Source: Ereboglobus sp. | Lineage (GTDB): Bacteria; Verrucomicrobiota; Verrucomicrobiia; Opitutales; Opitutaceae | Direction of reading: 5' to 3' | Assembly (NCBI GenBank): GCA_029974595.1 | Contig: JARKRC010000027.1 | Coordinates: forward strand, 186,001 to 250,000 | Length of the DNA stretch: 64,000 nucleotides | In this document: positions 3,266 to 40,013 of the stretch, one piece after another | Position numbering within the stretch: position 1 is the stretch's first letter | Layout of the letters: the number at the start of each line of letters is the position of its first letter | The notes under the pieces: generated by a model | Seen by the model: only the letters and a program-made list of their open reading frames with translations | Database searches by the model: none | Told to the model about the DNA's origin: nothing | Translations under genes and position numbers: made by a program

Positions 3266-3300
3266 AACAGCCGGTTGATACAAACGGGAATCGTAAAATA

Positions 3301-3445
3301 ACGCGTGCGACAAGGAGGGGAGACATTCTTGTCGCCCGACGCACTGAAGTCCCGCCCGGTTTGAAAAATTTGAAAGCAAAAAAGAGCAAGGCTTGCGCCT
3401 CGTCCCGCGGCTGGAAAGCCAGCGCTCCCTGTCGCACGCGTTTTT
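3301..3445. repeat. REP-like palindromic repeat, family A, inverted pair
   Basis: Two diverged copies face each other: 3301-3345 begins ACGCGTGCGACAAGGAGGGG and 3388-3445 ends GTCGCACGCGTTTTTC. The same sequence type recurs at 19822-20013, 30318-30374, 39958-40013 and, as a fragment, at 46098-46120. Each copy holds short internal GC-rich palindromes. It lies in the gap between the TPR gene and the insertion sequence. Confidence 0.75.
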
Positions 3446-19821: not shown

Positions 19822-20013
19822 CACGCGTGCGACAAGGAGGGGCGGCATCCTTGCCGCCCGACGCGCACGAAGTGCGCGCCCTTCCGAATAGTAGAAGCGG
19901 CGGTCCCCGTCGCTTGTCTGCCTTGGTTTGCCTTGAGGTTTTCGTGTCTTGCTTTTGGCGAGGCTTCGCCTCGTCGGGCGGCGGGACGCCGCCCCTCCTT
20001 GTCGTACGCGTTT
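19822..20013. repeat. REP-like palindromic repeat, family A, inverted pair
   Basis: Left copy 19822-19880 (CACGCGTGCGACAAGGAGG...) and right copy 19958-20013 (...CTCCTTGTCGTACGCGTTT) face each other. Each contains a hairpin: GGCGGCATCCTTGCCGCC on the left, GGGCGGCGGGACGCCGCCC and CGAGGCTTCGCCTCG on the right. It fills the gap between the convergent ilvA and M14 peptidase genes and may act as a bidirectional terminator. Confidence 0.85.
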
Positions 20014-29915: not shown

Positions 29916-30800
29916 TTACAGTCCGAGCAAGCTGCCATTTTGTTTGATCCATCGTTCGGCGTCCTGCCACCAGGGGCAGACTTCGGCGACGCGGGTCCAG
30001 AAGCGCGTGGAGTGGTTCATTTCGCGCAGGTGCATCAACTCGTGGTAAATGATGTAGTCGCGCACAAAAAGCGGGGCTTGGACGAGGCGCCAGTTGAGTG
30101 AGATGACGCCGCCGGCGGTGCAGGAGCCCCAGCGTGTGCGCTGATTGCGCACGGCGACCTCGGTGACGGGCACGCGCGTCTCGGCGGCGAGTTCCCAAGC
30201 GCGCGCCGGAAGCTCGATTTTGGCAACGCGAAGAAAATGCGCTTCGAGCGCCGGGCGGAGGTTGGCGGTGAGGCTGGCGACGCGGAAGGTGTTGGGGCTG
30301 GCGGACTGGTTTTTTGGGCGAGGCTGCGCCTCGTCCGGCGGCTGGGAAGCCGCCGCTCCTTGTCGCACGCGTTTGTCTTGTGACGTGTGTTCTTCGCAGG
30401 CCAGCAGGACGGCGGGGCGTTCGGGCGTGGATTCCGGTGCGACGTGGATGACGGTCATTTCGCCGCGCCAGAGGATGCGCGTGCCGACGACCCAGATGGC
30501 GGTGGCGCGGGGACGTTTTTCCTGGCGCGCGCGGGCACGGGCGAGCCAGCCGGCCTGCTCATCGGCAAAGCGGCGCGCCTCGCGTTCGCTGCCGCGGGCG
30601 GGGATCGTAACAACCGCGGTGCCGTCGCGTTTGAGCGTGAGGCGGTAGTGGCGTGCCTGCCGGCTGCGCACAAAAACGAGTTCGGGAGCCAGCGCGGCGG
30701 ATGAGGGCGATGATGGCGGCGGTTTGTGCAAGCCGGGGGTGAACGCGGACGGGCCGAAGAGATCGAGCTGGATTTCGGGGGGCATCGCGGGTGGCGGCAC
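29916..30800 (-). CDS. YgjP-type M48/SprT-like metal-dependent hydrolase with in-frame REP insertion
   Basis: 294 aa. The zinc-binding HELMH is at residues 253-257 in YIIYHELMHLREMNHS, followed by FW...CPWW, and RTRWGSCTAGGVISLNWRL precedes it; together these mark the YgjP/DUF45 metallopeptidase family. The N-terminal part has the usual R-x-x-RHYRLTLKRDG segment. About residues 143-161 are encoded by a family-A REP-like repeat (30318-30374) that keeps the frame and adds a low-complexity segment (KRVRQGAAASQPPDEAQPRP). It lies between the N-terminal strand domain and the catalytic domain. The start lies 2 bases after the stop of the RluA-type gene, so the two are probably co-transcribed. Confidence 0.85.
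   Translation of the reverse strand: MPPPAMPPEIQLDLFGPSAFTPGLHKPPPSSPSSAALAPELVFVRSRQARHYRLTLKRDGTAVVTIPARGSEREARRFADEQAGWLARARARQEKRPRATAIWVVGTRILWRGEMTVIHVAPESTPERPAVLLACEEHTSQDKRVRQGAAASQPPDEAQPRPKNQSASPNTFRVASLTANLRPALEAHFLRVAKIELPARAWELAAETRVPVTEVAVRNQRTRWGSCTAGGVISLNWRLVQAPLFVRDYIIYHELMHLREMNHSTRFWTRVAEVCPWWQDAERWIKQNGSLLGL
30318..30374. repeat. REP-like palindromic repeat, family A, inside coding sequence
   Basis: Single copy: GCGAGGCTGCGCCTCGTC hairpin, then GGCGGCTGGGAAGCCGCC hairpin, then CTCCTTGTCGCACGCGTTT. It closely matches the intergenic copies at 19958-20013 and 39958-40013 but sits in frame in the YgjP-type gene. Confidence 0.9.
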
Positions 30801-39761: not shown

Positions 39762-39957
39762 GGCTTCGCGTAAATTTAAGGAAAGTGGTGATTGATTTCG
39801 TCACGGCGCTGCCGATATTCAGATACTAACTGCCGGTTATTCTTTAGATCTGACTCATTGGCATCCTGTATAATACCCTTAATTATCATGATGCGCTTTA
39901 TGATGCGTTTTTCACGCTGTTTTTGCCGCCTGCGCGGGCTTTTGGGGTGCGGGTGGG

Positions 39958-40013
39958 GCGCGACTTCGTCGCGTCGGGCGGCGGGACGCCGCCCCTCCTT
40001 GTCGCATGCGTTA
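39958..40013. repeat. REP-like palindromic repeat, family A, plus end fragments
   Basis: Full copy with hairpins GCGCGACTTCGTCGCG and GGGCGGCGGGACGCCGCCC, ending CTCCTTGTCGCATGCGTT. The terminal motif TCGCAYGCGTT is repeated twice more at about 40026-40036 and 40053-40064. The remaining intergenic DNA (39762-39957) holds no gene I can support; TATAAT at 39869-39874 has no clear -35 partner. Confidence 0.85.

Follow-up and report, generated by a model that had tools for sequence, protein, structure and literature searches.

An in-frame REP-like element in a ygjP-like gene of Ereboglobus, and REPs and RAYT-type transposases within other reading frames of this genome and its relatives

Introduction

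REPINs, in which two inverted REPs form a unit, have been described as extragenic. Inteins and in-frame homing elements encode a DNA-cutting enzyme in frame within a conserved gene. Intragenic REPs have been published, with Opitutus terrae having the most of the GTAG kind and Rickettsia conorii the most of the CGTC kind, together with the idea that such copies are perhaps neutral when located in loops; hosts in O. terrae include both uvrA genes and DNA ligase (passages of Di Nocera et al., 2013, PMC3733652). With such elements in print, and O. terrae the richest in GTAG ones by that account, the original prediction's view that in-frame palindromic elements are known mainly from Rickettsia is out of date. 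The Rickettsia palindromic elements (RPEs) are about 150 bp, longer than the REPs described here, and the portion of PMC10969869 used here names no transposase for them. REPs also occur in frame inside tnpA_REP genes of subclass 2.4, where they leave the frame undisrupted, and a few unexpectedly long proteins were discarded in that study as fusions or annotation errors (passages of PMC6006769).

Here we describe a REP-like element within the reading frame of a ygjP-like gene of Ereboglobus sp. (Opitutaceae). The window, meaning the whole stretch of DNA analysed, comprises 64,000 nt (assembly GCA_029974595.1, contig JARKRC010000027.1, positions 186,001-250,000 of the forward strand; offset 186000) of a 4.07-Mb genome in 77 contigs that is 96.4% complete. 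This genome is labelled G000, G001 and G003 are among the three congeners compared, and other G numbers are relatives. The family to which the ygjP copy belongs is named REP-A. Like the GTAG REPs of O. terrae as portrayed in the passages of PMC3733652, REP-A consists of short hairpins in many copies, with inverted pairs, a RAYT nearby and some intragenic copies; unlike them, it has the foot GGAG and ygjP as a host, and whole RAYTs inside genes, found here, do not figure in those passages. The likeness to RPEs, drawn by description only, is that palindromic repeats lie in frame within unrelated proteins, whereas RAYT-type genes are present here and a second family, REP-B, rather than REP-A, accounts for most of the coding insertion seen. 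As in REPIN/RAYT systems, REP-A forms inverted pairs (67-234 bp) and flanks a RAYT-type gene, but the ygjP copy is single.

Results

The ygjP-like gene and its insert have the following features:

29916..30800, - strand: ygjP-like metallopeptidase-type open reading frame, GTG start, 294 aa, carrying the in-frame insert
30312..30398, - strand: insert of 87 bp, codons 135-163 (CEEHTSQDKRVRQGAAASQPPDEAQPRPK); 29 extra codons in the alignment with G001 and G003, missing in 29/29 relatives
30312..30373, - strand: REP-A element proper, 62 bp, with head ACGCGTGCGACAAGGAG, hairpin 1 (GGCGGC...GCCGCC) and hairpin 2 (variable stem)
30374..30398, - strand: putative degenerate second REP-A head in tandem, 25 nt, 15/20 positions matching

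The frame is intact over its 294 codons, with no internal stop, and the product matched PF01863 (YgjP-like) with 152.8 bits (gathering score 26; E 1.6e-44), in agreement with the YgjP-type host originally proposed. The residues of the HExxH...H motif, H248, E249, H252 and H258, were invariant in a 22-row alignment. An NCBIfam scan of the protein gave no match and a search of solved structures by sequence returned 0 matches; in a fold search with the YgjP model, abylysin 4jiu was the one structure to reach E ≤ 0.001, aligned across 104 columns. Pairwise dN/dS, which spans time both before and after the insertion and hence is no proof of selection since then, was 0.18 and 0.20 against two congeners (dS about 0.63-0.67), being 0.22-0.23 before the insert and 0.14-0.16 after it, and was 0.24 between two insert-free congeners. 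These sequence data suggest that the gene with its insert is not a pseudogene, an objection foreseen with the original prediction, and that it would encode a working protein. A true start downstream of the repeat is ruled out, as had been argued from the N-terminal domain, by conservation of the N-terminal half across 29 relatives.

The two-hairpin repeat predicted within this frame was recovered at 30312-30373(-), in the gene's own orientation, with 86.1 bits (E 6e-18) against a model built from 29 copies, the ygjP copy included. The 25-nt tail of the insert matched the REP-A head at 15/20 positions, a match equalled by 0.04% of shuffles and by 0/4000 random 24-mers of the window, and a second head was found close by at 14 of 65 REP-A copies examined. 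An origin of these 25 extra nt from host sequence was rejected, as a second REP-A head fits better, though one local alignment gave just 5 matching bases. Given this tandem head, the insert appears not to be a clean single REP.

The insert was missing from the frames of all 29 aligned relatives, the three congeners included; these are the best-matching relatives with retrieved loci among 82 genomes with a ygjP match (the window's own genome counted). Likewise, 21 named ygjP loci, from genomes that partly overlap the 29, were without it (22 were found, and one distant locus was left out). Furthermore, the DNA of G001 and G003 is continuous across the insert site, and no target-site duplication was seen at the ygjP insert. 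The expectation that the insertion is unique to this lineage was upheld among the relatives aligned, and comparison with the congeners (dS about 0.63-0.67), rather than with a within-species empty site, points to an insertion into ygjP in the lineage of this genome.

In an AlphaFold model of YgjP made from the 22-row alignment, the mean pLDDT was 82, with 54-63 for the blocks of the insert and 91 and 85 for the flanking blocks. The insert falls between strands 125-129 and 166-168 (model numbering is that of the ORF minus five), and the model places a short helix, 137-140, within it at low confidence. Residues of about 143-161 had been proposed to form a low-complexity linker between two domains; the insert instead occupies residues 135-163 and lies in a loop inside one YgjP match, not between domains. 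It is probably translated as a flexible 29-residue loop. A tolerated loop fits the fold prediction, and the peptide would on this basis be disordered and neutral. In relatives the neighbouring YgjP loop has accepted other inserts, one of them REP-like: the YgjP of another relative (L124:2944-3768(+)) carries the peptide GGTGVWPV there.

REP-A is a REP-like family, as originally predicted, with many copies in this genome. A 62-position model from 29 copies gave 119 genome matches at E ≤ 0.01, and the core pattern with ≤3 mismatches, a check independent of the model, gave 60 matches against 1 for the reversed control. Copies share the head ACGCGTGCGACAAGGAG, a GC-rich hairpin and then a second hairpin of varying stem. 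Six copies lie within the window, that in ygjP and the following five, of which two (19952-20012 and 39952-40012) had been named as family members at 19958-20013 and 39958-40013:

3300..3361, + strand: REP-A copy, first arm of an inverted pair
3380..3442, - strand: REP-A copy, second arm of the pair with 3300..3361
19822..19883, + strand: REP-A copy, first arm of an inverted pair
19952..20012, - strand: REP-A copy, second arm of the pair with 19822..19883
39952..40012, - strand: REP-A copy, single

Forty of 41 close pairs in the genome were inverted with heads outward, spanning 67-234 bp, and 37 of the 119 copies were single. The family therefore forms the unit of two inverted REPs by which REPINs are recognized, although the ygjP copy itself is single. 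The hairpin foot is GGAG (among 29 copies, G15, G16 and A17 never vary and G18 is present in at least 90%), and CGTC flanks the opposite side in many copies, not all. REP-A does not carry the unpaired GTAG/CGTC tag that marks REP superfamilies and, because its foot reads GGAG, we do not file it as a GTAG REP, though it is REP-like in behaviour. A RAYT-type gene at C70 (PF01797, 28.1 bits; cut-off 23) has an inverted REP-A pair on either side, the arrangement of a REPtron, in which a RAYT is flanked by its own REP; with REP-A pairs on both sides, it is the natural candidate for the transposase of REP-A. At E ≤ 0.001, matches to REP-A numbered 116, 43, 85 and 29 across the four Ereboglobus genomes and, beyond the genus, 81 in G007, of another genus, and 1 in G005; it was absent from the other 32 of the 38 genomes searched at this threshold.

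The original prediction had the repeat family invading coding DNA. Counted genome-wide, this is hardly so for REP-A: only 2 of 119 copies, those in ygjP and carB, lie in a supported reading frame, defined as one that stays open across the element and that, on each side of it, extends for at least 40 codons and scores as coding-like. This screen is blind to copies located close to the end of a contig, and elements that overlap the end of a gene fall outside the count. Four sites passed it; of these, C4:153320 and the pair at C45:92300/92401 were rejected as antisense shadows (antisense-like sequence, no NCBIfam match). As predicted genes cover ~77% of the window, genes contain far fewer REP-A copies than chance would place there (binomial p about 1e-71). 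The elements themselves are largely free of stops: all six frames are stop-free in 80 of the 119 copies, five in 30, four in 8 and three in 1, so that a REP-A insertion with a length divisible by three would usually be readable. The two in-frame copies share one frame and one orientation, and both are read via CAA GGA. The carB copy (L158:4950-8000(+); carB by NCBIfam) lies in a length-variable linker at which G002, as well as a second carB of G003, has a different insert (L244, L245; peptide GSARVPRA). The carB case is less telling about need, because the genome has another carB, of 50% identity.

REP-B (pattern CAYGGGCNNGANGCCCRTGCCAC) behaves differently. With ≤2 mismatches it had 255 genome matches, and the reversed control had 0. 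Of 94 distinct exact copies in retrieved loci (L068, L263-L286, L325-L370; 84 of them with at least 300 bases on either side), 32 lie in a coding frame, in 17 genes, with an open frame and coding signal on both sides. When applied to the genes it was trained on, this coding signal identified the correct frame for 173 of 187 windows, a check that is not independent. Given the intragenic REPs already published (passages of PMC3733652) and these 32 of 94 copies, the statement that REPs are normally strictly extragenic is not supported. Sixteen of the 17 genes had a Pfam match, the seventeenth being an RHS-like gene (L281) outside the scan. The hosts by Pfam are LytB/IspH, a formyltransferase (Fmt type), an E2 acyltransferase, a B12-dependent methionine synthase, a CobN-type protein, a Mg-chelatase/VWA protein, an alpha-2-macroglobulin, a Mur ligase, MutL, an rRNA adenine dimethylase, an ABC protein (taken as UvrA), an Mfd-like helicase, LpxB, a SASA/GH115 protein, a DUF2229 protein and isochorismate synthase; repair genes are thus represented by MutL and the Mfd-like and UvrA-like genes. 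Each of these genes presumably acquired its REP-B by insertion, isochorismate synthase being the one aligned with relatives. One frame per direction is used by 25 of the 32 copies (GTGxxPV type 14, HGxxARAT type 11), with 7 others. Per copy this bias has p 3e-7, copies not being independent; per gene, 11 of 17 use solely that frame (p 0.008). One genome thus keeps REP-A nearly out of its genes (2/119) and holds a third of exact REP-B copies inside them (32/94), and because both behaviours occur together, the tolerability of repeats in proteins can be studied in a single cell.

Whole RAYT-type transposases were also found in frame inside host genes. There are six Y1 transposase matches in the window's genome. 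One RAYT occupies residues 465-553 of a 1122-residue alanyl-tRNA synthetase (AlaRS), in a length-variable loop ahead of the YDTYGFP motif, and is flanked by REP-C copies; another lies in a 747-residue isochorismate synthase (menF) with REP-B copies on both sides, which are translated peptides. No second alaS was seen in this genome among the matches listed, the best three of four, which are the chimera and two RAYT-only matches (the fourth is weaker). The host genes with an in-frame RAYT are alaS, menF and at least four others in relatives:

L067:1368-4769(-), G000:C37: alaS with RAYT; also in G029 (L238), G055 (L253) and G127 (L252), and in G003 split over two contig ends (L239/L240), so that the upstream junction is not seen; alaS of the congener G001 is without RAYT
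L068:2414-4657(-), G000:C10: menF with RAYT; also in G007 (L237), G026 (L236) and G095 (L249)
L229 (G001), L230 (G003): creatininase with RAYT; Pfam matches to both parts in G001, G003 alike by sequence
L250 (G138), L231 (G009): Eco57I-type methylase with RAYT; Pfam matches to both parts in G138, G009 alike and ending early
L251 (G038): adenosine deaminase-like protein with RAYT; Pfam matches to host and transposase
L235 (G002), L233 (G067, of another family of the order): restriction helicase subunits with RAYT; Pfam matches to host and transposase

Pfam Y1_Tnp scored above its cut-off in 7/7 chimeras scanned. NCBIfam NF047646 (REP-associated tyrosine transposase) was the best transposase model for the three chimeras scanned with it (L252, L253 and L249), though its 75.4, 78.4 and 79.5 bits, respectively, fall just under the cut-off of 80. 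What we take to be the catalytic HUH and Tyr residues were kept in the ten embedded and two free RAYT domains compared, the G002 domain being without NP after the Tyr. The same residue labels occur in passages of PMC6006769. Family-wide, 81 of 120 genomes had a RAYT match at E ≤ 1e-10, and among the matches listed most lay in ordinary short frames. Twelve long frames around such matches were retrieved and five were upheld; the seven dropped, in G130 (two), G108, G048, G054, G039 and G057, were spurious judging from sequence. The chimera count leaves out a 686-aa frame of G012 and further long frames of G134, G006 and G026:C145, the last with a stop.

Unlike inteins, the chimeras had no splicing domain in Pfam and NCBIfam scans, and an embedded RAYT would remain in the protein. 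They also reverse the arrangement of subclass 2.4 as given in the passages of PMC6006769, where it is the REP that sits within a transposase gene; in the chimeras, a host gene surrounds the transposase. No report of a whole RAYT inside a host gene was found in the literature searched, which consisted of best-ranked titles, with subscription papers and supplements outside the search.

Among the alaS chimeras, identities of the RAYT and the host C-terminal part were 81/80% for G000-G003, 63/61% for G000-G029, 63/58% for G000-G127 and 77/76% for G029-G127, and the host tree contains both splits of a five-taxon RAYT tree. In the four pairs with G055, RAYTs were 9-11 points closer than hosts. The matching splits disfavour independent recent insertion into alaS, and the G055 pairs show an excess that co-inheritance alone leaves unexplained. 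As the host part of G001 is 96% identical to that of G003, G001 most likely lost the insert cleanly. Between G000 and G003, dN/dS was 0.13 for the embedded RAYT versus 0.27 for the host part; for pairs with G029 the RAYT values were 0.22 and 0.30 (dS above 1), and in the creatininase pair the RAYT value was 0.12. In these chimera pairs synonymous divergence of the RAYT exceeded that of the host part, which could reflect codon bias or an older origin.

Discussion

We consider it highly probable that a single copy of REP-A, a RAYT-associated element, inserted in this lineage into a loop of ygjP with the frame kept, that the resulting peptide is tolerated rather than used, and that this is one case of a wider habit. 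The observations behind this reading are the sequence and frame, the absence from relatives, the low host dN/dS, the stop-free elements and the other in-frame cases. One REP-A copy would have entered a length-variable loop of the ygjP-like gene in this Ereboglobus lineage, presumably moved by a RAYT that may still be active; the frame would have been retained because the 87-bp insert is a multiple of three and most REP-A copies are stop-free. The insert would now be read as a flexible 29-residue loop, tolerated and of no use to the protein. In the wider habit, REPs of several families and REP-flanked RAYT-type transposases would come to lie in frame, both here and in related genomes, where conserved proteins have permissive loops or linkers between domains.

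Could the loop instead have been co-opted, giving YgjP a new contact or regulation that selection has kept? The neighbouring loop, which took other inserts in relatives, one REP-like (GGTGVWPV, L124), lends this some appeal, but the insert is of low confidence in the model and present in one genome only, and many unrelated proteins of the genome carry REP-encoded peptides, so we regard co-option as quite improbable. That there is no such protein, either because ygjP is a recent pseudogene or because repeat copies were misassembled at the junction, is very unlikely. A very recent loss would be invisible to pairwise dN/dS, but the 294 codons are stop-free and dN/dS is low with both sides conserved; and while the assembly is a 77-contig draft with some REP-A copies at contig ends, this copy is internal to a contig of 400 kb and is bordered on either side by ygjP sequence in register.

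The remaining alternative concerns how the repeat arrived. Recombination or template switching between REP copies could have carried it into ygjP without RAYT action, and indeed the insert has one REP followed by a tandem head where an inverted pair would be the common form, and RAYT action is itself presumed here. Yet a REP-A-flanked RAYT-type gene is present in the genome and singles are common (37/119), and we judge this route very unlikely. On the preferred reading, of a RAYT-associated insertion that is tolerated, the ygjP case by itself is one more translated REP on a known list. For the surrounding genome a stronger claim has support, that REPs and transposases habitually insert in frame in this bacterial family.

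For the embedded transposases we put forward, as a possibility somewhat short of probable, that this family, and once another of the order, has RAYT-type transposases and REPs translated as domains within conserved proteins, some of them essential; that the HUH and Tyr residues are kept; that the alaS RAYT was inherited with its host under purifying selection; and that such RAYTs are made perhaps solely as parts of host enzymes and so are shielded from loss. The G055 pairs and the NCBIfam scores under the cut-off lower our rating of this proposal. With the menF RAYT flanked by REP-B (255 copies) and the alaS RAYT by REP-C, the transposases for REP-B and REP-C may be made only within host enzymes. 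If whole transposases do survive within the reading frames of enzymes such as alanyl-tRNA synthetase, a mobile element becomes hard to delete; these genes would then also be a natural domain-insertion experiment in which RAYT function is testable through host enzymes.

The history of menF may differ from that of alaS. Its RAYT identities (61-67%) are below the host identities (70-83%) and the RAYT and host trees disagree, which makes repeated insertion as likely here. The RAYT-free menF linker in G001 (L242) and G003 (L243) reads PRGLATRATAT, which is REP-B-like and may be the scar of a lost insert.
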